Positions 29,956 through 47,820 of a stretch of DNA of 64,000 nt are shown here, piece by piece; within the stretch, counting starts at the first letter, position 1, and every line of letters starts with the position of its first letter. Under the pieces are notes generated by a model. It searched no databases and was not told the DNA's origin. It saw only the letters and a program-made list of their open reading frames with translations. The DNA comes from Methylomonas koyamae (GTDB lineage Bacteria; Pseudomonadota; Gammaproteobacteria; Methylococcales; Methylomonadaceae): contig NZ_AP019778.1 of assembly GCF_019669905.1 (NCBI RefSeq), positions 124,001 through 188,000 of the forward strand, read 5' to 3'. A program made the position numbers and the translations under genes.

Positions 29956-30035
29956 GCTGGTTTCCTCGAATTGTTATGAAAAACCGTCGGGAAAACAAGC
30001 CCCCAGACCGGGAAGCTGTTTCCCGTCCGGGCGGA
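29956..30035 (-). ncRNA. radC-type structured leader (Uma2 gene)
   Basis: On the minus strand CGGGAAACA pairs with TGTTTTCCCG (one bulge) around the inner hairpin CCCGG-TCT-GGGGG. The SD region GAGGAAACCAGC resembles the stem's 5' strand and can pair with the same 3' strand. An alternative GGGAA/TTCCC hairpin is also possible. Confidence 0.65.
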
Positions 30036-30064
30036 TTGCGATTGAATCGCGTTAAGCGGTAAAA

Positions 30065-30094
30065 CATCCCCCTAACGCGATCGTCAGGGGGATG
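30065..30094 (-). terminator. Intrinsic terminator after the 96-residue gene
   Basis: Perfect 9-bp stem CATCCCCCT/AGGGGGATG with a 12-base loop, followed on the minus strand by TTTTA. It closes the GHKL ATPase operon just before the Uma2 leader. Confidence 0.7.
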
Positions 30095-30097
30095 GGG

Positions 30098-30388
30098 TTA
30101 ATCGCCGACAGACTGCTCGGCGTGTATTTTCCTCAGCATGCTATCGAGGACAGTCGGCAATAGCGCGCCGAACCGGCCTTGAAAGTCTAAGGGCTCGTTT
30201 TTGGCATAGCGCCTAGCCGCCAAACCTAACCGTTGTCTAACCCAAGGACTGGCCTTGAATTGGCTTCTCAGCCAGGTCAAATAGGCGTCGTCGTCGCCCG
30301 TCCAATCCGCCGGCGGCGAAAAGGGCGACTCGGGATGACCAGGCTCCGTATCCAGCGTTTGCGCGTCGATGACGAATTTCGAGGTCAT
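30098..30388 (-). CDS. Hypothetical protein cotranslated with GHKL ATPase
   Basis: 96 residues; the family is not recognised. The sequence has a Pro/acidic N-terminus (GHPESPFSPPADWTGDDD) and a helical basic body (WVRQRLGLAARRYAKNEPL). Its ATG overlaps the stop of the upstream ATPase gene by four bases, so it has no leader of its own and depends on coupled translation. A partner role for the ATPase is plausible but unproven. Confidence 0.65.
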   Translation of the reverse strand: MTSKFVIDAQTLDTEPGHPESPFSPPADWTGDDDAYLTWLRSQFKASPWVRQRLGLAARRYAKNEPLDFQGRFGALLPTVLDSMLRKIHAEQSVGD

Positions 30389-32052
30389 GACGGCCGTTCG
30401 AGGTCGGTTAAAGCGGGTTCCGCTATCGAAACGGCTGCCAGCTGCCCATCAGGGGCAATCTCCACCACGAATCGGTTGCCGTGCAACACTTTGCATCCGG
30501 TTAGATCCGGCATCAGCCGTTTCAACGCGTCTGCGGGATCATCGGCGGTGTTCGCCACGATGAAGCAGCCAAATTGCTCGATATCCTGATCGTGACAGGA
30601 ACCTTGATAGTCATCGTCGTTCTCGCAGAAACGCGACACCTGTTCCAGCACGTCACCCCACTTTTCCTGGCAGGGAATCAGGACGATATCATCCTGTTCG
30701 TTGCCGGTATAGGCGCCGTGCTCATCGATTTCTATGCTATCGTCACCGATCCGGATCCGGTAAGCCCGGCAAAACACCGCGGTCACCCAAACCCAGATGC
30801 CTTGAAATTGCGCGCGATGTGACTCCTCAAGGATCTCACTCCGCACTTCTTCTTGGCTCAAGTGCCGCAGGTAAGGCTGCACCCAATGCCCGGCGTCGAA
30901 TTGGTTATCGACGAGCACCCAGCCTTTTTTCCAGGCCAGCAGGTATCGCAAGGCCCCATCGGACTGGAGATCGTCGTCAATCGTCACCAATTGCACTTGT
31001 CCGCTTTTGACGGCGGACTGGGTAATTGGTTGGTCAACCATTTCCAGAAAGTCGCCAAATAGGTCGGTATCGCAGACCGGTGGTCCTTGGATGCGGGAGA
31101 CTAGCGCTTTGGGCAGTCGGTCGACATCGTTGAGTAAGTGTATCAAGCCACACTCGCGTAGCACCGGGTAGTAGGTCAGGAAATCGTCCGCGCTCAAGGC
31201 CGTTTTCAGTGCCATGAGCTGGCTTTCGACCGCCGCGGCGATCGCCTCATGGATCAGCTTAATCACATCGGCTTCATCCACCAATTTGTCGCGATCCGGT
31301 AAGCGGGCCATGAATTGAGCGCTATCCAGATGCACGATATTGCCAAGGTGGCTGGTGTCTCCGATACGGTAATAGTGGCCTCGATATACCGGTAGGCCTT
31401 GCAAATACACCAAGCAATCCCGGTAATACCGATACGAATCGATCAGGTTGATCAAGCGAATTTCGCCGACCGGTGATGCCACAAACTCCGCCGCCCCGAT
31501 AGAATCGATGGCGTTGGGTCGCGGTAGCGAGACTCCGTTAAAATGCACCGGAATTGGAAAACCGGCCGCTAATTCCTCCAGGGTATTTTTGAGTTTACCT
31601 GGGTCGATATCGACCAGCCGGATTTCGGTCAGACCGTTCCAATCGGTCACCGGCGAAACCTCCACCGGTTGAAACCCCAGGATATGATCGGTATCGACCG
31701 AAAAACACCCGCCTTTACTGGATAACCCCAGATGCCGGCAGGCGAAGATCGCGGATAGAAAACCGACGCCAAAGGCGTGTTCCTTCGCAATCAGTTCCAT
31801 GTCCCAGCCGGACTCGGCGACGGTGAGCAGGGTTTCGAGCGAATCGATTCCGCAGCCGTCGTCCGTCACAGTCAAGGTGTTGGTATCGGCGCAGTAGTCG
31901 AACGCGACATAGCTGGCGCCGGCGCGGCGGGCATTCTGCATCAGTTCACCCAAATACGTCGTCCGATTGGTAAAACTCCACTTCAGACTGTGGACTAAAT
32001 TTTCAGGGTTTACTTTCAGTTGTAGGGGTGCGTTCATGGTGTTTTTCCTCAA
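30385..32052 (-). CDS. GHKL (HSP90/MutL-type) ATPase of ICE
   Basis: 555 residues. The N-terminal ATP-binding fold shows the N-box TYLGELMQNARRAGASYVAF, G1 VTDDGCGIDSLETLL and G2 HAFGVGFLSAIFA within the first 110 residues. The remaining 400 residues are unassigned, with an acidic C-terminal part. Proteins of this shape occur in ICEs and defence islands, but the client is unknown. It starts at ATG 32052 after a structured leader and is coupled to the 96-residue gene downstream. The complete ATPase motifs suggest an active enzyme. Confidence 0.75.
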   Translation of the reverse strand: MRKNTMNAPLQLKVNPENLVHSLKWSFTNRTTYLGELMQNARRAGASYVAFDYCADTNTLTVTDDGCGIDSLETLLTVAESGWDMELIAKEHAFGVGFLSAIFACRHLGLSSKGGCFSVDTDHILGFQPVEVSPVTDWNGLTEIRLVDIDPGKLKNTLEELAAGFPIPVHFNGVSLPRPNAIDSIGAAEFVASPVGEIRLINLIDSYRYYRDCLVYLQGLPVYRGHYYRIGDTSHLGNIVHLDSAQFMARLPDRDKLVDEADVIKLIHEAIAAAVESQLMALKTALSADDFLTYYPVLRECGLIHLLNDVDRLPKALVSRIQGPPVCDTDLFGDFLEMVDQPITQSAVKSGQVQLVTIDDDLQSDGALRYLLAWKKGWVLVDNQFDAGHWVQPYLRHLSQEEVRSEILEESHRAQFQGIWVWVTAVFCRAYRIRIGDDSIEIDEHGAYTGNEQDDIVLIPCQEKWGDVLEQVSRFCENDDDYQGSCHDQDIEQFGCFIVANTADDPADALKRLMPDLTGCKVLHGNRFVVEIAPDGQLAAVSIAEPALTDLERPS

Positions 32053-32120
32053 TTAAATTGGAACGTCGAGGAAATCGAGACGCACCCCTGGCGGGGAATG
32101 TCCGTTTCCCCGAGTCATTG
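32053..32120 (-). ncRNA. radC-type structured leader (GHKL ATPase gene)
   Basis: Minus-strand stem TCGGGGAAA/TTTCCTCGA with one G-U, and inner hairpin CCCC-GCCA-GGGG. SD GAGGAAA is a perfect complement of TTTCCTC in the stem's 3' strand. An alternative hairpin GGGGAA/TTCCCC exists. Confidence 0.7.
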
Positions 32121-32171
32121 GGTTTTAACGCGCGTCACCGGGTTATCCCAAGTGATGCGCGGGTGTGGTGT

Positions 32172-32281: not shown

Positions 32282-32704
32282 CTAGCTTTTCAAATCGAAG
32301 TGAATACCTTGAACGCCATGGGCTTCCAAGAATTCTTGATCGCTAGAAAAGTGCTGTTTACATGGTTCAATGCAAGACGAGCATAAACCCCATCCAGTGT
32401 CTTGGCCGGACCATTGGCGACCAATAAATTTATTGAAACAATGTGTGCAGCGGAGGGTAATGGGTGTTGATAACACATGGACGGGCAAATCGAAGTGAAT
32501 ACCTTGAACGCCATGGGCTTCCAAGAATTCTTGATCGCTAGAACAGTGCCGTTTACATGGTTCAATGCAAGACGAGCATAAACCCCATCCAGTGTCTTGG
32601 CCGGACCATTGGCGACCAATAACTTTGATGCCGCAACATGTGCAGCGGAGGATAATGGGTGTTGACAACACATGGTTTGCTTCATGCGGTTTTTCTTGAT
32701 GCAT
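32282..32704 (-). CDS. Tandem-duplicated zinc-ribbon protein
   Basis: 140 residues from ATG 32704, chosen because it follows the leader and SD directly. It comprises two nearly identical units of about 63 residues, each VLSTPI-LRCTxC then WSGQDTGWGLCSSCIEPCK and SSDQEFLEAHGVQGIHFDL. Each has paired CxxC/CxxC metal ligands. The DNA is repeated with few changes (about 32300-32475 and 32500-32675), so the duplication is recent. The role is unknown; small zinc-ribbon proteins are common in ICE accessory modules. Confidence 0.7.
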   Translation of the reverse strand: MHQEKPHEANHVLSTPIILRCTCCGIKVIGRQWSGQDTGWGLCSSCIEPCKRHCSSDQEFLEAHGVQGIHFDLPVHVLSTPITLRCTHCFNKFIGRQWSGQDTGWGLCSSCIEPCKQHFSSDQEFLEAHGVQGIHFDLKS

Positions 32705-32772
32705 CTGTGTTTCCTCATAGGAAGCCAGGAAACGCAATCCGCAAGCGGGAATGAGTTTCCCGGCAGGGTTAG
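32705..32772 (-). ncRNA. radC-type structured leader (zinc-ribbon gene)
   Basis: Stem CCGGGAAAC/GTTTCCTGG with one G-U, inner CCGC-TT-GCGG, and alternative GGGAA/TTCCC. SD AGGAAAC exactly complements GTTTCCT of the stem's 3' strand. Confidence 0.7.
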
Positions 32773-32847
32773 AAAAATAATAATGAATTAAAGTGCTGTT
32801 ACCGAAGCGACAATACCTTGATCATCAAGGAGTAAAGCAACTTGGTC

Positions 32848-33183
32848 TTAAGCCGCCAGGGCCTCGCTGCCAAACGAATGGCTAGCATGGCCGGCAAAGC
32901 AAGACGGTTCGGTTGCAAGATTAATCCGCGTCGTTTTCTGAAACGTATCCGTCACAATTCGAATACTGTCCAGGCCGGACAGCTTGAATTGCGAAACGAT
33001 CGGTCCGCCGCAGACGAGGGACAGGCCGTTTTCCTGTTCTTCGTCCAGATTGATATCGCCCCAATCGCCGTTGGCATGTCGGTCCAACAACGCTGTCATT
33101 TCGACACCGCAAGCGGTTAACAACGCCAGTGCGGCGATAGAGGTTTGTATCCTTCCGTTTGAGAGTGATACGAGTGCAGTCAT
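32848..33183 (-). CDS. Small ICE protein with conserved FAG-H-EALAA tail
   Basis: 111 residues from ATG 33183, the first ATG after the leader; the longer frame to 33348 lies within the upstream gene. Segments LLTACGVEMTALLDRHANGD and WGDINLDEEQENGLSLV match the region found in many ICE proteins that also occurs as LLEDMLLDAG...HAADWA in the neighbouring 33257-33883 gene. The C-terminus FAGHASHSFGSEALAA matches the relic at 32172-32281. The function is unknown. Confidence 0.65.
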   Translation of the reverse strand: MTALVSLSNGRIQTSIAALALLTACGVEMTALLDRHANGDWGDINLDEEQENGLSLVCGGPIVSQFKLSGLDSIRIVTDTFQKTTRINLATEPSCFAGHASHSFGSEALAA

Positions 33184-33256
33184 GGTTCCTTCTCCAAAAA
33201 TGACGGGGAACACAGGCTCCCGTACGGGAAAGACAGTGCTCCCCGCAAGGGTGGTT
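33184..33256 (-). ncRNA. radC-type structured leader
   Basis: It fills the whole gap between two genes. Stem CGGGGAGCAC/GTGTTCCCCG with one G-U, inner palindrome CCCGTACGGG, then T5. The SD region GGAGAAGGAACC contains GGAAC, complementary to GTTCC of the stem. Confidence 0.7.
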
Positions 33257-33883
33257 TCAAAAAGGCTCAGGGTAATATTCGTCCGGCAACAACACTGTTG
33301 TCGCCGAATGATCGGCTTTGGTGATGACCCAGACGGTGTGTGCGTCATTAATCCGATACACCGACATCAGTTGACCGCCTTCAGCCAACACAAATTGTTC
33401 TAACACCGGATCCTCTACGGCCCAATCGGCAGCGTGGCGCGAGAGCAAGTAGCCCGCATCGAGCAGCATGTCTTCCAGCAGAGCGAGTACGCCGGGTGTT
33501 ACCACCGTGGTACCCAGCCGGAAGGGCTGTTTTTGCGGTTCATTCCGGATCAGACGGACGGCGTAACTTTCCGCGACCCGCGCGTCGATGGCAGCCGAAA
33601 ATTCCGCGATTGCCTTCCGAATCGTGTCGGCATTGGCCGTTTCCGGCAATGTTACGAGTAGCGATTCCAGGATATTGCGGCCTTGACTGTCATAGCCGGC
33701 GGTCACTACCCATTCGTTTGCCCAGTAGCTTACGAATACATAGGCCTGCTTGCGTCCGACCGCGGTGGCATAGCCTTTCGTGGCGATGGCCACGCTGTTG
33801 AGCGCGACCCAGCCTTGGTCCGTCAAAGATTGCTGTACGCTGCGTTTGATGGCGGCGTCATTGTTTTGTGGTTGGTCTGTCAT
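33257..33883 (-). CDS. Conserved ICE protein with SATTVLLPDEY motif
   Basis: 208 residues from ATG 33883. The C-terminal 90 residues match a frequent ICE/plasmid protein family: VVTPGVLALLEDMLLDAGYL, HAADWAVEDPVLEQ, LMSVYRINDAHTVWVITKAD and SATTVLLPDEYYPEPF. The N-terminal domain (VQQSLTDQGWVALNSVAIAT) is unassigned. These proteins are often annotated only by context near radC and recombination genes; no biochemical role is known to me. It shares homology with the next gene downstream. Confidence 0.7.
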   Translation of the reverse strand: MTDQPQNNDAAIKRSVQQSLTDQGWVALNSVAIATKGYATAVGRKQAYVFVSYWANEWVVTAGYDSQGRNILESLLVTLPETANADTIRKAIAEFSAAIDARVAESYAVRLIRNEPQKQPFRLGTTVVTPGVLALLEDMLLDAGYLLSRHAADWAVEDPVLEQFVLAEGGQLMSVYRINDAHTVWVITKADHSATTVLLPDEYYPEPF

Positions 33884-33950
33884 GGTGATTTTCCTCAGAA
33901 AATGCCCCGACAAGCCGCACCCAAACGGGTAGGGTACCCGTCGGGGTTAA
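33884..33950 (-). ncRNA. radC-type structured leader (divergent sequence)
   Basis: The stem is CCCCGAC/GTCGGGG, replacing the GGGAA-type strand by its polarity opposite, around ACGGGT-ACCCT-ACCCGT or ACCC-GTTT-GGGT. The SD GAGG sits in the loop of ATTTTC/GAAAAT. The architecture is kept with different sequence. Confidence 0.55.
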
Positions 33951-33972: not shown

Positions 33973-34596
33973 TTACTGCAGTGCGTGCCAATACCGCGTC
34001 GCTTCAGCTTCAGACAAAAAAGCGGCCTTCTGCCGGTCGTTCACCCAAACTTGCCAGGGTAAATCGTCGTTTTCGCACTCGATTAGCCCGTGCTTGTCGA
34101 CGGGCAAGGCAAAGCGTTGGCCTTGAATGAAGGCAGCAAACGCATTTGCCCGCCGTTTGTTTACAAAGCCGGCATGGACTTGGCCGTCGATCGTGACCGA
34201 CCACGGATAATCGACGTGGACCCCTTTTTGGATGGCAACGTCGCCAACCCGAAAGGTCGGGTGCTGATAAATGGTCCGAAACGGACTGTCAATCCGCACG
34301 ATACAGTGGTCCAAAATAGCCAGACCGCCGCTTTCACCGGGTTCGATCAGCAACGGCACCTTGATCTTGCCGCATGAGCGACCGATAGTGCCGATGACAT
34401 CGTTCTCGTCGAACCAGGACTGTCCCGTTGCCGGGTCGCCATAGTACAAACGGATTTTCCGTTGCGTACCCTGGACTTCCTCAAGCAGAGCAATGACTTC
34501 TTGAGGCGTGTCCTCGTGATAACAGGTGCCGGACGGCAGACGCTGATAGCGAACTGTATTCCCGTGACTGGTCTGTTCAATAATGTGGTGTTGCAT
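33973..34596 (-). CDS. Hypothetical ICE protein
   Basis: 207 residues from ATG 34596; an upstream ATG at 34626 would lie inside the leader. It is a beta-rich soluble protein with no recognised family: KIRLYYGDPATGQSWFDEND, VIGTIGRSCGKIKVPLLIEP, VGDVAIQKGVHVDYPWSV. The C-terminal AAFLSEAEATRYWHAL resembles a short helical motif. It sits between radC and the SATTVLLPDEY gene, each with its own leader. Confidence 0.65.
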   Translation of the reverse strand: MQHHIIEQTSHGNTVRYQRLPSGTCYHEDTPQEVIALLEEVQGTQRKIRLYYGDPATGQSWFDENDVIGTIGRSCGKIKVPLLIEPGESGGLAILDHCIVRIDSPFRTIYQHPTFRVGDVAIQKGVHVDYPWSVTIDGQVHAGFVNKRRANAFAAFIQGQRFALPVDKHGLIECENDDLPWQVWVNDRQKAAFLSEAEATRYWHALQ

Positions 34597-34665
34597 GATG
34601 TTCTCCAGTTGAAGCGGGAACACCACGCCCCAGTCGGGAACAGGTATTCCCGCAGGGTAAGGTAC
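34597..34665 (-). ncRNA. radC-type structured leader
   Basis: An 11-bp stem GCGGGAATACC/GGTGTTCCCGC with one G-U, inner CCC-GACT-GGG, and alternative GGGAA/TTCCC. SD region GGAGAACATC pairs with GGTGTTCCC of the same 3' strand. Confidence 0.75.
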
Positions 34666-34742: not shown

Positions 34743-35216
34743 TCACAACAAGCCATGCTCAGCGAATGAATGCACGGTTTCGCCGACGATGAAGTGATCA
34801 AGTACACGAACGTCAATCAAGGCCAAGGCTTCTTGAAGTTTTGCTGTAATCGCGCGATCGGCCCGACTAGGTTCGCTAATCCCCGACGGGTGGTTATGCG
34901 CCATAATCAGAGCTGCCGCATTATGGTGCAGCGCAGCTTTGACCACTTCGCGCGGATACACACTAGCGCCATCAATCGTCCCCCGGAACAATTCATCGCA
35001 AGCGATAACGCGATGTTGATTGTCCAAGAACAAACACAGAAATACTTCGTGCTCGTATGGCGCCAACTTCAATTTGATACAGTCCTTCGCGTCGTCAGGA
35101 CTGGTCAAGGCTTCACCTCGACTGAACGTGCGGTTGTAGATCTTAATGGCCTCTGATATGACATCCTGTTCATCAGCCATACGATAACTATTATTGGTTT
35201 CTTGAATGAATAACAT
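34743..35216 (-). CDS. radC: RadC-family JAB-domain protein
   Basis: 157 residues, the short ICE/plasmid form that lacks the N-terminal HhH domain of chromosomal RadC. The JAMM metalloprotease-like motif is intact: Glu in the early segment and [14 protein letters not shown], with both His and the Asp. [20 protein letters not shown] precedes it, as in the family. Despite the name, a repair role is doubtful and the activity is unknown. In SXT/R391 ICEs a radC gene likewise follows the recombination/CobT block. Its leader has the most perfect competing helices in the window. Confidence 0.93.
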
Positions 35217-35290
35217 GGGCTTTCTCCGGTAATCTTAAAATGTGGAGAAAGCCGTCCCCTGCCGGGGTAGACTTTCTCCGGAAGGGTTGT
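35217..35290 (-). ncRNA. radC-type structured leader (radC gene)
   Basis: Stem GGAGAAAG/CTTTCTCC around CCCC-GGCA-GGGG. The SD region GGAGAAAGCC is a perfect 10-base complement of GGCTTTCTCC, so the middle strand can pair either with the upstream copy or with the SD. This is the clearest example of the switch geometry. Confidence 0.8.
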
Positions 35291-35368: not shown

Positions 35369-37138
35369 TTACGACGCCAAAGGCAGATCTTGATTGGACT
35401 CCAAGGCATCAATCCATTCCAGCAAATTGCGGTTGACGGGTTCATTCGCCAACATCGCATCCGGATCGATCCCTCGGCTGGCCAGTACCGCGCTCATTGC
35501 CTGGGCTAAAAGGGCGTTGCCTTTTTCCCGTTCCGACTCGCCGCCGTGCTTGATGGCCCAAAAGGGATCGAAGCGTAAGTGTCTGGTGCCGCTTGGACAC
35601 TGTTTATTTACCTCGGCATGAAATGCCCGATCGAGCGATTCAGCCTGTTCGAACTGCTGCCAGAAACCTGGACCGGCTTGAGTATCCACCGGCGGTAACC
35701 AGCGTCGCCGACAGCCAACCCAACGGTTCATGCGGTCGATCAAGGTCTTGCTTTTCGGAAAAAAGTGGATGGTCCCGGCGCCCGGATAGTAACGAACGTC
35801 AAAGTAACTACTGCTTATCCGTTCACCGTCCTTAAGCGCACTGAAATGCTGCCTAAACACCGATACCAAACTTACTTCCGCTTCGGTCTTGCCGTCGAGC
35901 AAGGCAAAGACCTTGTCGAAATCGGCTAGAAGTTGCTCCGAATTCCAGTCAAGACCTGTGTGGTAGGACTCGACTTTATGCCCTGGCAGTACGAAGCGTG
36001 TGGTCTTGATCCGCATCCCCAGCGTGCGGTGTTTATCATTGGATTTCCACCCCATGTAATACACTGCATTGTCGCTGTGGTAGCGCGTGATCAGATCGAA
36101 CACATCGCAGACCATGCTGAGTTGAATTTCACCTTGCTGATCGATGATGCCTTGCAGAAAACCGTAAATATTCGCCACGGTAAATTCCAAAGACTTGATC
36201 GATTCGAAATCCGACTCCAACCGCTTTTGCGCCGCCGATGACAATCGTGACTTGACCTGAGTCGAACGCAGAATGCTACTCCACGCGCGATTTTTCAGGT
36301 CCTGATAACGTTCGTACAGCGTCTGCTTCACCGCATCCAATGACGAATCGTCTACAGTGTGCACACCGCCACCACTCAGCTCACCCAGGGTTTTACCTAG
36401 CATGGCTCGATAGCGGCTGGCACGGGCTTCACTGAATACAGCCTGCCGTGTCGCTTCGAAGGCGGCATCGAACATCAATACCGCGTTATCGATATAAGCA
36501 GTCGGTAAGGCTAACTCCTGGGGCACATGAAATGCGCTGGCCAAGTCGTCCGCTTCACAACGATCCTGACGCAAATTGTCCAAAATATTGCCGAGGATCT
36601 CCTGTTCGAAGGTTGAGGTTTTTTTCAACCAGATCAGGGCAATTTCGACGTTGGTTTTGCGTTCGGCATCTTCGCCGGCGAACATGTCAGATAAGAACTC
36701 CACCTCGCCATGCTGTTCGATCAAACGCACTAACAGCTGGCGTTCTTTCGAAAATGGATTCCGTACGGTTTCGGCATTGAGGATGGCGACGATTTCAGCG
36801 TCGAACAAGATGTCCCAGGCCTTCAGCACGTGGTGAGCGCCCTGTGCAAAAGGCGGATTCATAATGCAGTGCGAGTAACTGCTGCCGTTTTGAAACTGCA
36901 GGAAATCCAACCCGACCACCGTGTAGCCTTGCGCACGTAACACCGCATGCTTACGCATATCGATTTCGACGCAATCAATCGCTACCCGTTGGTGCTGTTT
37001 GAATGGCTTGGCTTTGAGCAAATGCCCTTCGCCGGCCGATGGATCCAGTACCCGCACAAATCGGGTGTTCCTGAACTTTGCCCAAGCCCGGATACTCAGC
37101 GCTTCCGTCGAGGCATATTGTTGAAAGTGGTCTCTCAT
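35369..37138 (-). CDS. DUF4942 protein with N6-adenine methyltransferase domain
   Basis: 589 residues from ATG 37138. The N-terminal class I SAM fold has motif I VLDPSAGEGHLL and motif IV IMNPPFAQGAHH, typical of an amino-methylating DNA MTase. The C-terminal half carries DUF4942 (NIYGFLQGIIDQQGEIQLSM, VYYMGWKSNDKHRTLGMRIK, YFDVRYYPGAGTIHFFPKS). These ICE/plasmid proteins are thought to modify element DNA, perhaps as antirestriction; that is inference. No cognate nuclease gene is adjacent. It has its own leader and lies upstream of radC. Confidence 0.85.
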   Translation of the reverse strand: MRDHFQQYASTEALSIRAWAKFRNTRFVRVLDPSAGEGHLLKAKPFKQHQRVAIDCVEIDMRKHAVLRAQGYTVVGLDFLQFQNGSSYSHCIMNPPFAQGAHHVLKAWDILFDAEIVAILNAETVRNPFSKERQLLVRLIEQHGEVEFLSDMFAGEDAERKTNVEIALIWLKKTSTFEQEILGNILDNLRQDRCEADDLASAFHVPQELALPTAYIDNAVLMFDAAFEATRQAVFSEARASRYRAMLGKTLGELSGGGVHTVDDSSLDAVKQTLYERYQDLKNRAWSSILRSTQVKSRLSSAAQKRLESDFESIKSLEFTVANIYGFLQGIIDQQGEIQLSMVCDVFDLITRYHSDNAVYYMGWKSNDKHRTLGMRIKTTRFVLPGHKVESYHTGLDWNSEQLLADFDKVFALLDGKTEAEVSLVSVFRQHFSALKDGERISSSYFDVRYYPGAGTIHFFPKSKTLIDRMNRWVGCRRRWLPPVDTQAGPGFWQQFEQAESLDRAFHAEVNKQCPSGTRHLRFDPFWAIKHGGESEREKGNALLAQAMSAVLASRGIDPDAMLANEPVNRNLLEWIDALESNQDLPLAS

Positions 37139-37205
37139 GACATTCTCCAAAAAAAGGGGAATGCCACGCCCCGGTCGGGAACAGACATTCCCGCAGGGAT
37201 TGATA
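37139..37205 (-). ncRNA. radC-type structured leader (DUF4942 gene)
   Basis: Stem GGGAATG/CATTCCC followed by T8, inner CCCG-AC-CGGG, and alternative GGGAA/TTCCC. SD region GGAGAATGTC matches the 5' strand and pairs with GGCATTCCCC at 9 of 10 positions. Confidence 0.78.
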
Positions 37206-37827: not shown

Positions 37828-37895
37828 GGCAATACCCTCCGTGATCGGCGGGAACCGCCACCCTGCAGGATGGAGTCCCGCCAGGGTGAATAAAA
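37828..37895 (-). ncRNA. radC-type structured leader with visible pseudoknot option
   Basis: GGCGGGA pairs with TTCCCGCC, while CACCCTG just upstream pairs perfectly with CAGGGTG lying between those strands. The order a-b-a'-b' gives an H-type pseudoknot. SD GGAGGG follows. Confidence 0.65.
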
Positions 37896-38930: not shown

Positions 38931-38934
38931 TAAA

Positions 38935-39050: not shown

Positions 39051-39164
39051 AGAACGCATGAAGTCGATTTTTTCATGTCCCGTCGCGGACGACGCATGAA
39101 AAAACCGGCTGATATCGCACGCACCCACTGTAGCCCGATCCGGCCGGGCGTGCAATAGGGAAGG

Positions 39165-39239: not shown

Positions 39240-41003
39240 TCACGCCGCCAATAGCATGGCTTTGGACAGTGCGAACAGCTGAGGCCTCAATTCAGCCAGG
39301 TCATGAATGGTGAGGGCGACCGGAAACAAATGGCCGACCTCCACCCCTAAGCCGATGCCGAGGGTTTCGATGCCGCTGTCACGGCAACGCTTTAAGATCG
39401 ACAGCGTGCCCGGTAAATCGTTGGGTACGCCGTCGGTCACCGTTAACAGCAGTTTGCGCGGTTCGCGGCATTGCAGCAATTGCGCCGCGGCAAACCAAAC
39501 GGCTTGCGTCATCGGCGTGGTATAGGCCGAAAAGACCGAAAAACGTCCCAAATTGTCGCGGACTTTTTCGCCGTGCCGTAACACCTGGTGCACCGATTCA
39601 TCGTTGGCGCCGGGAAAGGCGGTGATTGCCGGATTGACCCCTTGAATGCTCTCCAACGCGAGGGCCAAGGCCATCGACGCTTCCAGGGCCAGAGTGAGCA
39701 AACTCACCTCTTCGCCCTGAATGACAAGGGTTTCGCCCATGCTTTCGGATTTGTCCAACAAGATATGCACCGCACAATTGGGCGCAACTCGTTGCCCGGA
39801 TCGGCAAAACACCCGCGTATCGCCCAACGCGAGTTTGGTTAAGCGGCGAGGATTGATACGCCGGCCGTTTCGCGCGGCTTGCGGCCGATTTTGCCGGTGG
39901 GCTTGCACCGCGCTTTGCAACGCGACCCGCAGGGCTTTGCTGTTCTGCTCCACCCGGTTTGCTAAGGCTTGGCCGACTAGCCGACTACCTTTCGGAAACA
40001 GACCGACAGGTAGCGTACATTTTTCGGCCGAATCCGGCGTCAAACCCAATTGCGATTTCGCCGTCTCGAACCAATCCTGTTCCAGGTCTGGCTCTGATAG
40101 CGTGTTGAGCTGGTCCATTAAGGACGCTTGCTTCGCGCTGTCTAGGTTGGCCGGCTCCCCCGTTCCGGACGGTGGGTTGGGCGAAGTCGCCGAACCGTTT
40201 CCGGGATCGTTGTCCTGGTCGGACGGTGCAGAATCTTCCGGGTTGGTGCCGTTTTGATCGTCCTTTGCGTCCGAATCGGAAGAGGGTTGATCGTCCTGTG
40301 CCGAGTCCGCGCCGGATTGAAGGGTGTTGTCATCCTCCGGGTCCGTATCCGACTGGTCGTCAGACGCGGTAGCCGCAGGTTTCGCACATTCCTCTTCGAG
40401 CATCGCCAGAATCCGATCGGTCAGATCAAGACAGTCGCGTTCACAGGTCAAGCCCTCCGGTACTTCGGACAACAAGCCTTCCAAGCGAATCAAAGCGCCG
40501 CGTGGAAAACATGCGCGCAAGGCCTGTCGCGTAGCGTCGACTAAGGGTTCGAGTACCGTTTGGCCCAACACCTTGGCCCGAAGCCGTTTCAGAATGTAGC
40601 CGAACAGGACATTGCCGGGATGATCGGATGCGGCCTGGGCCGTTAAGCGACCTTCGGTCAACATCTGTTCCACCATCTTTGCCAGGGTCAAGCGGGTGCC
40701 CGGATAGACCTTGGCCAGTTCATGCTCAATGCGCACGTCTTCGATCGCGCCGCAGATACGCCGGCGCAGAACCGAGTCACCAAAATCGAGCTGAAAGTCC
40801 GAAAACCGAATATGCGCCGCTTCATGGGCCAGATAGCCCCACGCGTAGTTCTGGTACTGCGGTTCTGACCCGTTGTAGCCAGGTAGTTGTATCGATTGGC
40901 CGTCGGTGTAGGCTTCAGTACCGCCGACCGAGATCGAAATGCCAAAGCGGTTGCCGATCGCGGCCGCCACAATGGGAAACGCGCGTTCTAAAGTTTGATG
41001 CAT
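39240..41003 (-). CDS. CobT-like VWA-domain protein
   Basis: 587 residues from ATG 41003. The N-terminal part has an HEAAH zinc-site-like motif (YLAHEAAHIRFSDFQLD), then a long acidic Asp/Ser/Gln linker at about 235-300, and a C-terminal von Willebrand A domain with the MIDAS sequence ILLDKSESMGET and TVTDGVPNDLPG. CobT-like VWA proteins work with a CobS/MoxR AAA+ ATPase as a chelatase-like remodelling machine. The matching ATPase is at 42848-43789. In SXT/R391 ICEs a cobS/cobT-like pair occupies the same place; no cobalamin role is implied. Confidence 0.85.
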   Translation of the reverse strand: MHQTLERAFPIVAAAIGNRFGISISVGGTEAYTDGQSIQLPGYNGSEPQYQNYAWGYLAHEAAHIRFSDFQLDFGDSVLRRRICGAIEDVRIEHELAKVYPGTRLTLAKMVEQMLTEGRLTAQAASDHPGNVLFGYILKRLRAKVLGQTVLEPLVDATRQALRACFPRGALIRLEGLLSEVPEGLTCERDCLDLTDRILAMLEEECAKPAATASDDQSDTDPEDDNTLQSGADSAQDDQPSSDSDAKDDQNGTNPEDSAPSDQDNDPGNGSATSPNPPSGTGEPANLDSAKQASLMDQLNTLSEPDLEQDWFETAKSQLGLTPDSAEKCTLPVGLFPKGSRLVGQALANRVEQNSKALRVALQSAVQAHRQNRPQAARNGRRINPRRLTKLALGDTRVFCRSGQRVAPNCAVHILLDKSESMGETLVIQGEEVSLLTLALEASMALALALESIQGVNPAITAFPGANDESVHQVLRHGEKVRDNLGRFSVFSAYTTPMTQAVWFAAAQLLQCREPRKLLLTVTDGVPNDLPGTLSILKRCRDSGIETLGIGLGVEVGHLFPVALTIHDLAELRPQLFALSKAMLLAA

Positions 41004-41080
41004 GGCTTGCTCCTTAAAAAGCAAGGGGCAAGCCACAGCCCCGAGGGGCGTGTCGCATTGCCCCGATAGGGTGATAAAAA
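41004..41080 (-). ncRNA. radC-type structured leader (VWA gene)
   Basis: Stem GGGGCAA/TTGCCCC, inner GCCCC-TC-GGGGC. SD region GGAGCAAGCC pairs with GGCTTGCCCC at 9 of 10 positions. CACCCTA upstream could add a pseudoknot with the GGGG. Confidence 0.78.
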
Positions 41081-41086: not shown

Positions 41087-42280
41087 TTAGAACCAGAATT
41101 CGGTAACCGCTTCCTCCGGTAGTTCGGATTCGTCGGTGCCGTGGGTATCGGGTTCGTTGTCGTTGTCGGATCCGTGCGCTTGCGCAGCCAACGCGGGCGG
41201 TGCAACGGGTAGAACCGGCCGCGAAGCGATGTCGGCAAAGGATTGAGCTTCGCCTTCATCGTCGGTAAACAGATCGTCTAACAAGCCGGCAAACAGATCG
41301 TCCGGGTCCACCGTGGGCGGCTCTTTCGGTTCGAGCAGGCTGGTTTGCACCGGGGCGATCACGGCTGTCGATATCGGCGATGCCGGATGCCCTGACGACA
41401 ACACGTCATCCGCGTCTTCGTCGTTCGTTACCTTGGACGGGTTCGACGACAAGCCTTCTCCGTGACGGCGAAGCTTGTCGGGATCGGCCAATAGCATGGT
41501 CATTGCCATGATCTCCTGCAGCAAGGCCCCCTCGATCGCGCCGCGATTGGGGATTTCTTGCAGTACGCCATCGATCCAGGTGACGATCGGTGCCACGCGA
41601 TAATCCAAAAAGCTCAAGCCATCCAGTTTGTCGCGAATCCGCTTAATCGGCCGCAACGCATTCCGGGTGACCTGATCTTTTCCGATCAAGGATTGTTCCA
41701 GCAATAACTCGGCGTCGTTGGCCACTTCTTGAAACAACTGGCCGCCGATCGAATCGATTTGCTGTTCCAGCCGTGCCACATCTTTCGGGCTGGAGGCTTC
41801 CGGTTGTCGGATGGCGACCACCATGAAGTCGAAACCCAACTTCGTGGCCACGTACGCCATAGGGTCGATCGCCTTTTCGATAATGCCGGCAAAGCTCGGA
41901 TGCTTTTTGATCCAATCGCGCACGGCGTCGTCGTAGCCGGCCAGGAACTTCGCTTTATTAACCGCGAATTCCTGAGCGACTTTTTCCAGCTCGCTCACGA
42001 TGGCGTCCGCGTGTTCGACCGGCACCACAAAACCGCCCATGAAGCGGGTGCCGACCCGTAAACAGTGGCGTTCGGCCGCTTTTTTCAAGCGATTGAAGTC
42101 CGCCAACTGGTCGGGATCGAGCAAACGTTTCGAGCCTAAGCTGGCCAAGTCCTCGGGCGGTAATTCACTGCCGTCGGCCAGTACCAGATCTTCTTTGCGC
42201 AATTTTTTCCGCGCGCCGTAGATGTTGGCTTGGATTTTGACCAAGACCACACGGTCCAATATTTGATTACACTTCGTCAT
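41087..42280 (-). CDS. DUF3150 protein
   Basis: 397 residues. The N-terminal two thirds match DUF3150: LDRVVLVKIQANIYGARKKL, DLASLGSKRLLDPDQLADFN, VGTRFMGGFVVPVEHADAIV, SFAGIIEKAIDPMAYVATKL. The C-terminal 120 residues are acidic and low-complexity (LFAGLLDDLFTDDEGEAQSF). DUF3150 genes consistently sit between cobS-like and cobT-like genes in SXT-type ICEs, as here, suggesting a third subunit of that machine; the function is unknown. Confidence 0.85.
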   Translation of the reverse strand: MTKCNQILDRVVLVKIQANIYGARKKLRKEDLVLADGSELPPEDLASLGSKRLLDPDQLADFNRLKKAAERHCLRVGTRFMGGFVVPVEHADAIVSELEKVAQEFAVNKAKFLAGYDDAVRDWIKKHPSFAGIIEKAIDPMAYVATKLGFDFMVVAIRQPEASSPKDVARLEQQIDSIGGQLFQEVANDAELLLEQSLIGKDQVTRNALRPIKRIRDKLDGLSFLDYRVAPIVTWIDGVLQEIPNRGAIEGALLQEIMAMTMLLADPDKLRRHGEGLSSNPSKVTNDEDADDVLSSGHPASPISTAVIAPVQTSLLEPKEPPTVDPDDLFAGLLDDLFTDDEGEAQSFADIASRPVLPVAPPALAAQAHGSDNDNEPDTHGTDESELPEEAVTEFWF

Positions 42281-42350
42281 AGTGCCTCCTTAAAAGAGGC
42301 CTACGACAGCCCCGGAGGGCAGTGTAAGCCCCTTCCGGGTTGATAAAGCC
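42281..42350 (-). ncRNA. radC-type structured leader (DUF3150 gene)
   Basis: Stem AGGGGCTTAC/GTAGGCCTCT with two wobbles, inner GCCC-TCC-GGGGC. GCCTC of the 3' strand pairs directly with SD GAGGC six bases on, forming a short SD-masking hairpin. Confidence 0.7.
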
Positions 42351-42846: not shown

Positions 42847-42847
42847 G

Positions 42848-43789
42848 TCACACCTGCCAATCGCTGCCGAACACGTCTTGCGCCAACCGGTGGATGGCCT
42901 CGCGTTCGGCCGCATCCCCCCGCAGAACCAGCGCCCGATCCAAGGCATAGGCCAGGGCGTTCGGGGAACCTTTGTAGTTGGCACTGAGCTGGGCCCAACG
43001 CAACAAGCTGCGGGTCGACATGGTGATCGAAAGCAGGCCGGCCGAATCGCTGCCGCCAATAAAGACCTTGCGGATCTCGTTGGCCAGCTGAATCATGCGT
43101 TCCCGAATGCTCAGCGGCATGGTCGGGACCGCGCGTTCCAGCATGCTCATTTCGTCGTCCGGTTCCGGATAGCCCACTTCCATCAAACGAAAGCGGTCCA
43201 TAAAGGCCAGGCTTTGACGCATCACTCCTTGATACAAGCCCGACTGGTCGCCGGCGCCGGCACTGTTGCCGGTTGCAACCAGACGGAACTTCGGGTGTGG
43301 AATGACGACTTCGTCGGTGGCCGCAATCATCAGCGGTTTGCCTTCGACGATATCGTTTAAACCCAGCAACTCGGCCGGGTCGGTCGCATCGATCTCGTTG
43401 AGCAAGAGCACGTGGCCGTGGCGCACGGCGCTGGTCAACGGGCCGTCGGTCCATTTCATCGTGCCGTTGCCGGTTAAGACGAATTGGCCCAACAAATCGT
43501 TGAACTCAAGCCGGCCATGACCGGCAACGGCATGCACACCCCAATGTAAGCGCGCGGCGGCTTGCTCAACCAACGAGGTTTTACCGGAGCCCGTGGGACC
43601 GGTGATATACAGTCCATCGCCATTCGGATTCCGAAAGAACGCCAGGACGTCGCGCAATGGCTCGCGCCGAAACACATACGGTTTTTGGACCGGCACGAAT
43701 GGATTATTTGCCGGGACAAAGCCTTCGACGGTCATCGAGGCCGGTGCGGATACGCCGAAGGTATCGGCGACGGAATACTGTTGGTACAT
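42848..43789 (-). CDS. CobS/MoxR-like AAA+ ATPase
   Basis: 313 residues. Walker A is GLYITGPTGSGKTSLVEQAA, Walker B HVLLLNEIDATDPAELLGLN, then sensor 1 KFRLVATGNSAG and a C-terminal helical lid. MoxR/CobS ATPases form hexamers that act with VWA partners; the VWA protein is two genes downstream. It corresponds in context to the cobS-like gene of SXT/R391, next to the exonuclease and Bet genes. Start ATG 43789 follows its leader. Confidence 0.88.
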   Translation of the reverse strand: MYQQYSVADTFGVSAPASMTVEGFVPANNPFVPVQKPYVFRREPLRDVLAFFRNPNGDGLYITGPTGSGKTSLVEQAAARLHWGVHAVAGHGRLEFNDLLGQFVLTGNGTMKWTDGPLTSAVRHGHVLLLNEIDATDPAELLGLNDIVEGKPLMIAATDEVVIPHPKFRLVATGNSAGAGDQSGLYQGVMRQSLAFMDRFRLMEVGYPEPDDEMSMLERAVPTMPLSIRERMIQLANEIRKVFIGGSDSAGLLSITMSTRSLLRWAQLSANYKGSPNALAYALDRALVLRGDAAEREAIHRLAQDVFGSDWQV

Positions 43790-43870
43790 ACTGCCTCCTG
43801 ATTTAAGAGTGACTCCCGAAATAGAAGGCGTGCGCCCCCGGTAGGGAAGCGAACCTCCCTTGCGGGGTTG
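43790..43870 (-). ncRNA. radC-type structured leader (CobS-like gene)
   Basis: The GGGA/TCCC hairpin with CCGGGGG inner strand is clear. The outer stem is weak. GCCT of the middle strand can pair with SD AGGC. A longer, less regular member of the class. Confidence 0.5.
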
Positions 43871-43920
43871 ATTAATGAGTCATAGCGGTTACGATGGTCT
43901 AAACCATTGAGGGCTCCGAT

Positions 43921-44130: not shown

Positions 44131-44391
44131 TTCGGCCAGAAGGTGGGCTTTAGCTTCGCCGATCGCCTTGCTCGCCAGCAATTGGCGTAAGGTGTCGGCT
44201 TGGCCGCGGTCGACGAGCGATAGCACCAAGGTGGTGGCAATTGACTCGTTGAGATCCCGGAAGATATCGGGATGATTCAATAAAGCGCCTGCGACCGTGG
44301 CCGGTTTTAACGCGGCCAGTTCGAGGATCTTCTCCGCCGTGGACATGGAGGGTTCGCGGCGTGGCAATTTCGAAACAGAATTGAGGTTCAT
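44101..44391 (-). CDS. Small helical ICE protein
   Basis: 96 residues from ATG 44391, directly after its leader. It is entirely helical, Leu/Ala-rich: STAEKILELAALKPATVAGA, ESIATTLVLSLVDRGQADTL, RQLLASKAIGEAKAHLLAEL. No family is recognised. The presence of a leader of the common class, with perfect SD complementarity, supports it as a genuine member of the regulated set. Confidence 0.6.
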   Translation of the reverse strand: MNLNSVSKLPRREPSMSTAEKILELAALKPATVAGALLNHPDIFRDLNESIATTLVLSLVDRGQADTLRQLLASKAIGEAKAHLLAELLLLEAFAE

Positions 44392-44460
44392 GGTCGTATC
44401 TCCTATAAAAAAGGGAGACACGCCCCCATCGGGAGAGGTCTCCCTGGGTGGGGTGGGTAA
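44392..44460 (-). ncRNA. radC-type structured leader
   Basis: Stem AGGGAGAC/GTCTCCCT followed by T6, inner CCC-GAT-GGG. SD region GGAGATAC pairs with GTGTCTCC at 8 of 8 positions, including one G-U. Confidence 0.78.
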
Positions 44461-44752: not shown

Positions 44753-44983
44753 TCAACCGACAGACACTGCACGTTCGGCGATCGCGGTCAGCGCAACTGC
44801 GTGCAGCTGCTTGAGCAAGTCGACTTCGGGATCGTCACGGTGTTGCCAATTGTCCGGCAACGACGCGATATACGTCGTGACCAGGGTGGGCTCGGTTTTA
44901 GCCATCTCGAACAGGCGACGGGTAGTATCCCGGCGGTGCTTAAGATCGGTTAAAAACAGCCAAACAGCTTCTGATTTTGTCAT
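44753..44983 (-). CDS. Small hypothetical ICE protein
   Basis: 76 residues from ATG 44983: SEAVWLFLTDLKHRRDTTRR, LFEMAKTEPTLVTTYIASLP, LLKQLHAVALTAIAER. Helical, no known family. The start is fixed by the adjacent leader and SD GGAGG. Upstream lies five-hairpin element B. Confidence 0.55.
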   Translation of the reverse strand: MTKSEAVWLFLTDLKHRRDTTRRLFEMAKTEPTLVTTYIASLPDNWQHRDDPEVDLLKQLHAVALTAIAERAVSVG

Positions 44984-45050
44984 AGTGCACCTCCAACAAT
45001 CAGGGGGCACCGATGGCCCGATAGGGCGTGATGCCCCATTCGGGTTATAA
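44984..45050 (-). ncRNA. radC-type structured leader
   Basis: Stem GGGGCA/TGCCCC, inner GCCC-TAT-CGGGC. The SD segment GGAGGTGCAC can pair with GTGC-CCCC with a bulge. A moderately clear member. Confidence 0.6.
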
Positions 45051-45054
45051 AATA

Positions 45055-45170
45055 GGCCGTTGATAGCAACGGCCGGACGAAGCCGGGTTTGACGCACCCG
45101 GTACCACCAAGGACATGCCTTGATCGCCGCCTGAAGACGGAGCGCCTGCTCTGCAGGATTTTCAGCGTAT
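45055..45170 (-). ncRNA. Five-hairpin structured element, copy B
   Basis: Minus-strand order: H0 CCTGC-AGA-GCAGG (45157-45145), H1 CCGTC-TTCA-GGCGG (45140-45127), H2 CAAGG/CCTTG (45122-45108), H3 CCGGGT-GCGTCAA-ACCCGG (45101-45083), H4 GGCCGTTG-CTAT-CAACGGCC (45074-45055). Every stem is intact though H2-H4 differ in sequence from copies A and C. There is no reading frame across it. Confidence 0.75.
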
Positions 45171-45248
45171 CGATGACGATAGCGCTAGAAAAGTCGGTTG
45201 AGGGCTTGGCTTACACCTTAAAACAAGCCCTGAATCGACTTAAAGAAA

Positions 45249-45272: not shown

Positions 45273-45290
45273 TTCGTTGCTAACGTGTTT

Positions 45291-46289: not shown

Positions 46290-46633
46290 TCGAACTCTCC
46301 GTCGATCCGGATGTGACAGCCGTGCAGCACGCCTTCTAATTTGCGTTGTTTCAACACCGCGTGGCAACGCTGTGCGAGACGGACATCGTCGAATAGCAAC
46401 AAGGTGCAACCCGGCGATAGGGTGCAGATGCCGCCGAAGGTATCGGCGATACTGACCAAGTCGGCGTAGGAATGCCGGCGATGAAATAGCCGGGTTTCCG
46501 TGTCCGGATCCAGCGCTTTATCAAGAAATCCCGGCCCATAGCGGCGCAGGACGGTCGGTGAGTCGTAACGGCTCCAGTCGGTAAAGCTGGGTATCCGGTT
46601 GAGGGATTGATCGAAGGTGGTGATTTCAGTCAT
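46286..46633 (-). CDS. Small protein between recT and exo
   Basis: 115 residues from ATG 46633: SLNRIPSFTDWSRYDSPTVL, LVSIADTFGGICTLSPGCTL, LLFDDVRLAQRCHAVLKQRK. An alpha/beta protein with no recognised family. Its ATGA overlap with the exonuclease gene makes the leader upstream a regulator of both. In SXT the corresponding place holds an SSB gene, but no OB-fold signature is evident here. Confidence 0.6.
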   Translation of the reverse strand: MTEITTFDQSLNRIPSFTDWSRYDSPTVLRRYGPGFLDKALDPDTETRLFHRRHSYADLVSIADTFGGICTLSPGCTLLLFDDVRLAQRCHAVLKQRKLEGVLHGCHIRIDGEFE

Positions 46634-46705
46634 GACGTTTCTCCAACAGAAGAGCGTCACGAATAGCCCACCGGGCGAATCATGACGCCCTGGATGGGTA
46701 AATGA
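46634..46705 (-). ncRNA. radC-type structured leader
   Basis: Stem AGGGCGTCA/TGACGCTCT with one G-U, inner GCCC-GGT-GGGC. The start region ACGTCATG carries CGTCA, complementary to TGACG, and AGA complementary to TCT, so the start codon itself can be masked. Confidence 0.72.
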
Positions 46706-46723
46706 GAAAAACCGAAAGTCGGT

Positions 46724-47746
46724 TTAATTTCTGAGTGCTTGACGAGCCTTGCTAAGCTCGGCGTCTTTCGCAGATAGCGGCGGCATGGTCATGCCTTCGC
46801 TATGCGTTAACGCGGGTTTCGGTTTGGCTTTGTCTAATTCCGCACGGGCATAGATCAGGTCAACACCAGTAAATCGGCTGGTGATGAATTCTTCGGCCGC
46901 CGCCCATGCGTTTGCATCTTTTGTCCGCTTAATCAGGGTTTCAACTGCCTTAATCAAATTTGGATGGAGCTTAGATGCATCGATCACCTCCGGCTTGGCT
47001 TCAGCTTGAGGCTGTTGCTCGGGTGTCGCAGTAGTCGGTTCGGCCGGCGGATCGATATCGATAACATCGGAGCCGTCGATATCGATGATTTTGCCGTCCA
47101 TTTCCTCGGCGGCATAACCGCATTCTTCCGGAAAGGCCGCACGCAAAGACGCCGCTTTACCGCATTTGGCCAATTGCCCTTTGGGGCGCTTGATCCACAT
47201 CGCGGTAGGCACTTGCGAGTTTTTGCCGCCGGCCGTGCTGTAGGCTTCAAGCCAATAGACTTCCTCGGTAAAGGCGCAACGTTGGCCGCCGACGATCCGG
47301 TACACGGTAACCGCCACCCATTCGGGAAAAGTTACGCTGACATTGACGTCCTGCCATTGGTCGTTGTCGTCTTTGTAGCGCCCGGTAAAGGTCTTGGTGA
47401 CATCCGGGCCCCACACGGGACGGTCCATTCCAGCCCAAACACCGGTTCGGGACGCGGTGGTCTGAATTTCCGTGATGGAGGGCCAGACGGTTTCGACATT
47501 GCGACCTAAAGCGGTACTCCACATCGGGACGATATGCACCGGTTTTTTGAAGATGTCGAGTTTTCGGGTTTTGCAATAATCCAGAGCCATCAAGATGGCT
47601 TCTGCGGTTTTGGCTGTGGGAAAGGTGACTTCCGTCAGCACTTTCCAGGATTGCTCCGTCAGGCCATAGGTTTGTTTCGCAGCATCCGGTATTGCCGGGC
47701 GAGTATGCGTATCGGAGGTATTTCTGCAGGGATTGCTTTGAGCCAT
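46724..47746 (-). CDS. RecT/Bet-family single-strand annealing protein
   Basis: 340 residues from ATG 47746. The RecT core is evident: WKVLTEVTFPTAKTAEAILM, DYCKTRKLDIFKKPVHIVPM, WPSITEIQTTASRTGVWAGM, and the C-terminal LAKCGKAASLRAAFPEECGY typical of Bet proteins. The remaining 110 residues form an acidic Pro/Glu linker and a helical tail. It anneals complementary strands exposed by the YqaJ exonuclease. It heads the minus-strand module, and five-hairpin copy C and a leader precede it. Confidence 0.9.
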   Translation of the reverse strand: MAQSNPCRNTSDTHTRPAIPDAAKQTYGLTEQSWKVLTEVTFPTAKTAEAILMALDYCKTRKLDIFKKPVHIVPMWSTALGRNVETVWPSITEIQTTASRTGVWAGMDRPVWGPDVTKTFTGRYKDDNDQWQDVNVSVTFPEWVAVTVYRIVGGQRCAFTEEVYWLEAYSTAGGKNSQVPTAMWIKRPKGQLAKCGKAASLRAAFPEECGYAAEEMDGKIIDIDGSDVIDIDPPAEPTTATPEQQPQAEAKPEVIDASKLHPNLIKAVETLIKRTKDANAWAAAEEFITSRFTGVDLIYARAELDKAKPKPALTHSEGMTMPPLSAKDAELSKARQALRN

Positions 47747-47820
47747 AATCGTTCTCCTTAAAAAAAGGGAACGACGGACTCCCATTGGGGAATCGGATCG
47801 TTCCCCATTGGGTGGTATAG
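47747..47820 (-). ncRNA. radC-type structured leader (RecT/Bet gene)
   Basis: Stem GGGAACGA/TCGTTCCC followed by T7, inner CCC-AAT-GGG. The alternative GGGGAA/TTCCCC excludes it. SD region GGAGAACGAT copies the 5' strand and pairs with GTCGTTCCC except for one mismatch. Confidence 0.8.

Follow-up and report, generated by a model that had tools for sequence, protein, structure and literature searches.

The 64,000-nucleotide (nt) stretch of Methylomonas koyamae DNA analysed here (the window; RefSeq assembly GCF_019669905.1, contig NZ_AP019778.1, positions 124,001 to 188,000) lies on a 241,446-base contig (C2) of a 5.1 Mb genome in two contigs, and carries between 29 and 48 kb a minus-strand module of 20 genes, most of which are preceded by a short structured leader that is the subject of this work. 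Contig C2 is most likely a Methylomonas plasmid, since among named entries of the plasmid collection those nearest to it, by the DUF4942 protein, are plasmids of Methylomonas sp. DH-1 (98% identity) and M. koyamae (94%). On the minus strand the gene order is RecT, a small gene, YqaJ exonuclease, CbbQ-type ATPase, DUF3150, CobT/VWA, DUF4942, RadC, a HATPase-like gene and Uma2, all named from Pfam matches apart from the small gene and the HATPase-like protein, which scores below the Pfam cut-off; the remaining genes are interspersed among these without a Pfam match, and the matches show no metabolic theme. Inspection of the 120 nt before the starts revealed a leader of ~65-90 nt directly 5' of 17 minus-strand starts (29955, 32037, 32704, 33183, 33883, 34596, 35216, 37138, 37827, 38851, 41003, 42280, 43789, 44391, 44983, 46633 and 47746), in agreement with a first-pass annotation, made from the letters of the sequence, that had proposed about 17 such leaders serving the module as a whole. 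Of the three leaderless genes among the 20, the exonuclease gene and g30388 each share 4 nt with the end of the gene before them and g42846 begins 1 nt past that end; the orthologs of g42846 and the exonuclease gene likewise show no leader by eye.

In each leader short C-rich and G-rich strands alternate, six in all (ACCC, GGGNNN, NNCCC, GGGG, N'N'N'CCC and SD-NNN, where SD is the Shine-Dalgarno sequence), an architecture well supported by computation. Strand 2 is GGG followed by gene-specific bases, strand 3 combines bases matching those with CCC, strand 5 carries the complement of strand 2 and CCC, an often U-rich stretch comes next, and strand 6 is the SD GGAG with gene-specific bases, followed by the ATG; strands 2 and 5 are the 5' and 3' strands of the long-range stem P1 (helix 2:5). 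Computation yields two nested folds that exclude each other, a closed one in which helix 1:4 encloses 2:3 and a separate 5:6 helix hides the SD, and an open one in which 2:5 encloses 3:4 and the SD is freed from strand 5. The closed fold was the minimum in 8/10 window leaders folded, and 2:5 was the minimum in the leaders of the CobT/VWA gene (41001..41075, minus strand) and g33183 (33181..33255, minus strand), the latter predicted to adopt mainly the 2:5 fold with its SD mostly free (mean unpaired probability 0.70). Ten out of ten leaders tested were more stable than the mean of their dinucleotide shuffles (z -2.4 to -4.2).

The SD had been claimed to copy one strand of P1, so that the middle strand could pair with either, and swap tests bear this out both in the window and in leaders from elsewhere; the example given for radC (leader 35214..35290, minus strand), GGCTTTCTCC against the SD GGAGAAAGCC, proved exact at 10/10 positions. 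These tests compared the duplex energy of a leader's own strands with that of strands taken from other genes over 20,000 permutations. Among 16 window leaders strand 5 bound its own SD at -12.1 kcal/mol against -7.9 when swapped, and strand 2 bound its own strand 5 at -17.2 against -10.2 kcal/mol (0/20,000 for both); the strand 2 x SD control was flat (8133/20,000) and the strand 3 x SD control not quite flat (-5.5 vs. -4.2; 4/20,000). With 18 leaders from related loci added, the resulting 34 gave own versus swapped energies of -12.1 and -8.1 kcal/mol for 5:6, -17.9 and -10.5 for 2:5 and -9.7 and -7.4 for 2:3 (0/20,000 in each case), again with a flat 2:6 control (3638/20,000). An earlier, unrestricted swap test using the whole leader pointed in the same direction more weakly (26 and 4 of 100,000); there the own partner ranked first in few leaders, a result that leans against the match seen by eye and that we take to reflect competition by the C-rich strand 3.

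A second set of leaders was drawn from stretches outside the window's genome, picked by the pattern of strands 1-4 and then an open reading frame (ORF) with an SD, irrespective of strand 5 and of SD pairing; 82 pattern hits yielded 68 leaders once 11 from the M. koyamae genome itself (locus L121) and three others (length outside 58-92 nt, unparsable, duplicate, or fewer than 20 nt after strand 4) had been removed. The private codes recur in these outside leaders. Own and swapped energies were -12.07 and -7.92 kcal/mol for 5:6 (own better in 66/68), -12.37 and -7.84 for 2:5 (59/68) and -8.82 and -7.43 for 2:3 (47/68), each with 0/20,000, and the controls gave 5869/20,000 for 2:6 and 2979/20,000 for reversed strand 5 x SD. 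The longest uninterrupted helix between strand 5 and the SD averaged 7.85 for own, 6.01 for swapped and 6.18 for reversed strands, and strand 2 resembled its own SD more than the SDs of others (7.74 vs. 6.57; 0/20,000). The second set is biased, in that most of its stretches were fetched for hits of our covariance model (R1), which models four 5:6 pairs, and R1 reports 55/68 of the leaders at E ≤ 0.5; the remaining 13 gave -11.32 vs. -6.96 for 5:6 (own better in 13/13) and -10.84 vs. -6.46 for 2:5 (10/13), both 0/20,000, with a 2:6 control of 11249/20,000. Ordinary genes of plasmid pRA1 showed no fit to their own SD (-7.35 vs. -7.10; 3348/20,000; 69 genes, one of 70 having been dropped for a non-standard start).

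Switching between the two folds was predicted by masking the SD, which mimics ribosome cover or an unfinished transcript, in the 68 outside leaders and 15/17 window leaders (those of the HATPase-like gene and g32704 were not parsed by the pattern used). Full leaders had at least four expected 5:6 pairs in 14/15 window and 63/68 outside cases, and with the SD masked 2:5 formed in 14/15 and 50/68, the expected 2:5 pairs rising from 2.0 to 9.3 and from 1.2 to 6.9, respectively; a clean toggle was predicted for 11/15 and 41/68. When 2:5 was allowed, the cost of opening the SD fell from 11.6 to 6.6 kcal/mol in the window leaders and from 12.2 to 8.3 in the others, a mean saving through strand 2 of 5.0 and 3.8 kcal/mol that reached at least 3 kcal/mol in 11/15 and 34/68. 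Fold predictions and swap tests together place the leaders among bistable SD-sequestering leaders, with two exclusive helices that share one strand and one of which hides the SD.

Our data suggest that the leaders are cis-acting, gene-private bistable gates on translation initiation, a reading to which we assign a probability of roughly 0.6. In the closed state ACCC:GGGG would enclose GGGNNN:NNCCC and strand 5 would lie on the SD, in some leaders reaching into the AUG, and in the open state strands 2 and 5 would pair around 3:4, which would leave the SD free of strand 5. The open hairpin is predicted to be favoured in most leaders as long as the SD has yet to be made or has a ribosome on it, whereas once the SD is free the closed fold is predicted to be lower in energy in most leaders, so that a nascent or ribosome-busy message could be translated and would then be shut unless some factor held the gate open. 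Because strands 2, 5 and the SD share a code private to the gene, the gates should not cross-react with their neighbours, and strand 5 would be kept off the SD of another gene on the same message. A role in translation is favoured by model hits that end at start codons (see below), by the close abutment or overlap of the leaderless genes with the gene before them and by the presence of leaders on both strands of contig C2. We infer that the folds control translation, that they follow one another in the kinetic order given above and that no ligand is needed; folding order and ribosomes are the preferred means of tipping the balance, with a trans-acting factor or, less likely, attenuation as alternatives.

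Several results weigh against this reading. No clean toggle was predicted for 4/15 window and 27/68 outside leaders, the predictions describe equilibrium folding from which a kinetic order is deduced, and in the CobT/VWA leader the minimum fold containing 2:5 still places the SD in a small local hairpin. Strand 3 x SD also gives a small signal, in the 34 leaders (-5.0 vs. -4.1; 2/20,000) as in the 68 (59/20,000), so the specificity does not lie wholly in strand 5. Among 14 leaders of VWA genes, pairing in the 5:6 helix is standard in 90.5% and 2/6 pairs show double changes, in four cells (1/500 shuffles); in the 2:5 helix it is standard in 88%, with zero double changes. The proposal that the gene-specific bases change together in all three strands therefore stands between genes, where the swap tests show it strongly, but is thin within one gene, because the VWA orthologs offer two double-changed pairs in the SD helix and none in P1. 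The comparison covered 21 loci that contain DUF4942 relatives, of which 18 were scanned with R1 (L004, L016 and L018 being near copies), and the same leader anatomy was seen by eye before orthologous genes in Methylomonas, Methylocaldum and Methyloversatilis; outside the near-identical loci L001 and L002 ortholog identities were 42-53% (VWA), 53-56% (DUF3150) and 65-73% (MoxR). The DUF4942 leaders of other Methylomonas loci differ in look from that of the window, and in the loci from Sideroxydans, Noviherbaspirillum and Acidithiobacillus no leader was seen by eye before the DUF4942 gene.

The dominance of the closed fold in most predictions could also mean that the leaders are static SD-hiding hairpins that lower translation or are opened by upstream translation, the resemblance to P1 being a by-product of leader duplication. 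Four leaders (g33183, VWA, g46633 and g33883) do begin within ~25 nt of the upstream stop codon, but across leaders this gap runs from 1 to ~450 nt, which argues against a constant coupling geometry, and strand 2 fits strand 5 with the same gene specificity as strand 5 fits the SD, making static hairpins an improbable account.

Conservation bears on whether anything binds the leaders. In a MAFFT alignment of the 34 leaders, whose mean identity of 43% means that short motifs could be hidden by misalignment, every column with ≥90% conservation is either a C or G in strands 1-4 or part of the ATG, and no conserved unpaired ligand core of the kind expected for a metabolite riboswitch was found. 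Translational riboswitch expression platforms have an anti-SD strand shared by two exclusive helices, as the present leaders do, but the leaders show no such core and the module no metabolic theme. A trans-acting factor from the element or host (an RNA-binding protein, RNA chaperone or small molecule) might instead bind the conserved GC core and shift the same two folds, turning the module into a post-transcriptional regulon activated in a single step, for instance upon entry or excision. That the same core (ACCC, GGG, CCC, GGGG) stands before genes of differing function in many elements is consistent with such a factor, as is the mean cost of opening the SD, which at only 6.6-8.3 kcal/mol could be paid by binding. 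The confinement of the conserved columns to strands 1-4 and the ATG leaves no clear unpaired binding site, however, and CsrA and ProQ, the RNA-binding proteins searched for, have one match each, both chromosomal and none on contig C2; we regard a trans-acting factor as rather unlikely, yet as the strongest competitor to private gates timed by folding and ribosomes.

Model R1 was trained on a set that included 16/17 module leaders (all but that of g38851) and recovers those 16 at E ≤ 1, which is not independent proof because all 16 were in the training set. Among the minus-strand leaders recovered, that of the Uma2-family gene (29953..30032) scores 39.7 bits, g33183 50.3, the radC leader (strands GGAGAAAGTC, GGCTTTCTCC and GGAGAAAGCC) 38.9, the CobT/VWA leader (GGGGCAA, GGCTTGCCCC and GGAGCAAGCC) 54.2, the DUF4942 leader (37136..37202; GGGAATGTC, GGCATTCCCC and GGAGAATGTC) 51.1, g37827 (37825..37890) 30.9, the DUF3150 leader (42278..42343; GGGGCTTAC, GTAGGCCTC and GGAGGCAC) 44.4, the leader of the MoxR/CbbQ-type ATPase gene (43787..43871) 33.5, g44391 (44389..44457; GGGAGAC, GTGTCTCCC and GGAGATAC) 41.7, g44983 (44981..45048) 32.4, g46633 (46631..46702), a gene that ends within the start of the YqaJ exonuclease gene, 35.5, and the RecT leader (47744..47816; GGGGAACGAT, GTCGTTCCC and GGAGAACGAT) 40.5. 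The g33883 leader (33881..33950; 39.3 bits) is a variant with a local SD hairpin. In the g34596 leader (34594..34661; GGGAATACC, GGTGTTCCC and GGAGAACATC; 43.2 bits) the hidden helix extends to the ATG. Such a helix running into the AUG occurs in 13/68 outside leaders, and CRTG before strand 5, a suspected anti-start-codon motif, in 14/68; given these counts, neither is claimed for the family. Three of the 17 leaders fit poorly, namely those of the HATPase-like gene (32035..32113), which reaches 19.1 bits and E 0.17 despite belonging to the training set, g32704 (32702..32772; 39.3 bits), and g38851 (38849..38929), an outlier missed by R1 that has strands 1-4 and an SD hairpin and no predicted 2:5 helix. 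The g32704 protein itself (32282-32704, minus strand) consists of two near-identical tandem halves of ~65 residues each with Cys-x2-Cys motifs. R1 also added an 18th leader from outside its training set and outside the module, on the opposite strand (62994..63059, plus; 22.8 bits, E 0.026), before a short ORF at 63057 whose first 81 residues have no Pfam match.

Across the M. koyamae genome R1 gave 25 hits at E ≤ 0.1, with 14 on the module, nine at C1:1.121-1.136 Mb, where a second element with such leaders (L121; G000:C1:1117000-1136999) lies in the chromosome, and two at C1:2.80 Mb. At E ≤ 0.01 R1 detected the family in at least 63/201 genomes of the order and at least 22/398 of the phylum (this genome being in both sets), figures from which hits may be missing because 24 (order) and 12 (phylum) candidates per genome were scored, and among which isolated weak hits in the phylum set may have arisen by chance. 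Of the plus-strand hits in four named records from genera other than Methylomonas (Pseudomonas, Serratia, Enterobacter), 31/32 end exactly on an annotated start codon (L104 6/6, L125 8/8, L126 7/8, L127 10/10); two more hits, in L126 and L127, are on the minus strand and overlie a leader. The hits in L104 and L125 include those before the replication gene of STY4534-family integrative and conjugative elements (ICEs) and its neighbours, and in these two records no R1 hit at E ≤ 1 was found at type IV pilus genes; the IncA plasmid pRA1 gave none at E ≤ 1 within the 50 of its 144 kb examined. On the DH-1 plasmid (L105) 13/15 plus-strand hits end exactly at an annotated start codon.

Three observations were made beside this survey. 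On the DH-1 plasmid, bet (L105 9251-10387) is annotated as starting ~117 nt upstream of the start marked by the leader (hit ending at 9370), and the annotated N-terminus, which covers the leader, is probably wrong. A 177-nt element gene (L125 12855-13031) was labelled an OXA beta-lactamase by a resistance predictor, for which it is far too short, and the label is probably a database artefact. A near-identical leader and gene occur in G705 (L077), of the same class, and in G809 (L078), of the same phylum only, which points to recent transfer or contamination.

The clustering of the hits in this genome at three places would suit repeats that act as single-stranded DNA structures in conjugation rather than as RNA, similar to Frpo-like elements, which are single-strand promoters. 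A single-stranded DNA role was also raised for the neighbouring STAXI motif, for which RNA was judged likelier (Weinberg et al., 2010; PMC2864571). The leaders lie on the coding strand, however, end at the start codon, include the SD, and in some cases the AUG, in one of their strands, have helices that we judge short for a duplex promoter and are present on both strands of contig C2, all of which renders a DNA role very improbable.

The leaders had been assigned to the radC RNA motif, and this assignment fails. The Rfam model RF01754 has no match in the window, none even at E ≤ 10 on 29-49 kb, and none in the genome or in 14 control genomes; its 0 matches in 229 genomes of the class are, with 0/14 controls, uninformative alone. 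The same program finds 14 radC RNAs of 75-124 bits (gathering cut-off 40 bits) in related elements (L080, L087, L088, L100, L104, L125 and L127), where they are separate RNAs upstream of leaders. No other Rfam 15 model matched the leaders; the STAXI model (RF01728) has no match in the window and found four RNAs, in L082, L083 and L126. In the sister elements 12/14 radC RNAs end within ~31 nt of a leader (two of these leaders, in L088 and in L125 near 10770, were recognised by eye, and three are weak R1 hits, E 0.08-0.19), one ends at ~128 nt and one has no leader, and for 3/4 STAXI RNAs a leader lies no more than 85 nt away. These tallies are biased upward because loci entered the set by having a leader or by resembling a locus that has one; the extra copies in L104, L125 and L127 were not chosen individually. 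Because radC RNAs mostly end just before leaders, the radC RNA is a neighbour of the leader family and not the family itself. Both RNAs occur in 5' leaders on mobile elements, but the radC RNA is a 149-position RNA with other conserved hairpins and stands before few genes per element, whereas the present leader is on most genes of the module. The genomic context, with RadC, RecT, YqaJ exonuclease, Uma2 and DUF4942 encoded, does fit the radC RNA, which has been reported upstream of genes of the DNA repair, integration and anti-restriction type, but amounts to shared context only. We know of no assigned function for the radC and STAXI RNAs, nor of an SD-mimic design in STAXI or EFASI (RF02957), both of which occur near leaders on a Serratia plasmid, STAXI also in two further genomes. 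STAXI, described like the radC RNA in 2010, consists of repeated pseudoknots (Weinberg et al., 2010; PMC2864571), and EFASI is a likely trans-acting RNA according to Rfam text quoted in PMC12370729, in both cases unlike the SD-mimic leaders.

In the window, the slot held by radC or STAXI RNAs in sister elements is filled by a unit-start RNA candidate without an Rfam match, found on the minus strand upstream of the leaders of g38851 (38930..39064), g44983 (45049..45187) and RecT (47817..47948). It has a near-invariant core, GGCGYTCCGTCTTYAGGCGGCG, 74-81 nt before the leader, and hairpins with double changes in 9/28 predicted pairs (seven sequences, among which three pairs of sequences are near-identical). 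The radC and STAXI RNAs upstream of leaders also fit transcription attenuation, in which the 2:5 hairpin and a U-run would form an intrinsic terminator and RNAs of the radC/STAXI type would give read-through. The open hairpin is GC-rich, and the five consecutive T that stand no more than 3 nt from the strand-5 C's in 20/68 leaders are a further point against translational gating, with any TTTT in 35/68 as well as in the window's DUF4942, RecT and g44391 leaders. As a family feature, a hairpin followed immediately by a U-run fails at these counts; the other 48/68 leaders have no close T-run, the closed fold would block expression too, and it is left unexplained why strand 5 fits its own gene's SD, so attenuation appears improbable beside gene-private gates.

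Among known systems, the leader of the MS2 maturation gene permits translation from a transient fold before the closed fold forms, and in hok, aapA3 and MS2 the exposure of the SD is timed by metastable folds during transcription (PMC6733600). The present leaders resemble these in relying, by our reading, on metastable folds to time SD exposure, but those are single genes with unrelated structures and here dozens of leaders follow one blueprint with private codes; no paper on these leaders was among the matches listed in the open-licence literature. More tentatively, and with the odds somewhat against it, the leaders could form a distributed post-transcriptional regulon on Gammaproteobacteria mobile elements, in which dozens of six-strand leaders with private three-strand codes act as non-cross-reacting, gene-by-gene translation timers downstream of unit-start RNAs (radC, STAXI and the present candidate), maybe in one start-up programme in a new host. 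If the proposed gating is true, it would add a widespread cis-regulatory RNA family without an Rfam 15 match and would give the radC and STAXI RNAs a regular partner. It would also show how mobile elements can control each gene separately within one operon, and the three-strand design would then be a natural set of mutually non-interfering translation switches.

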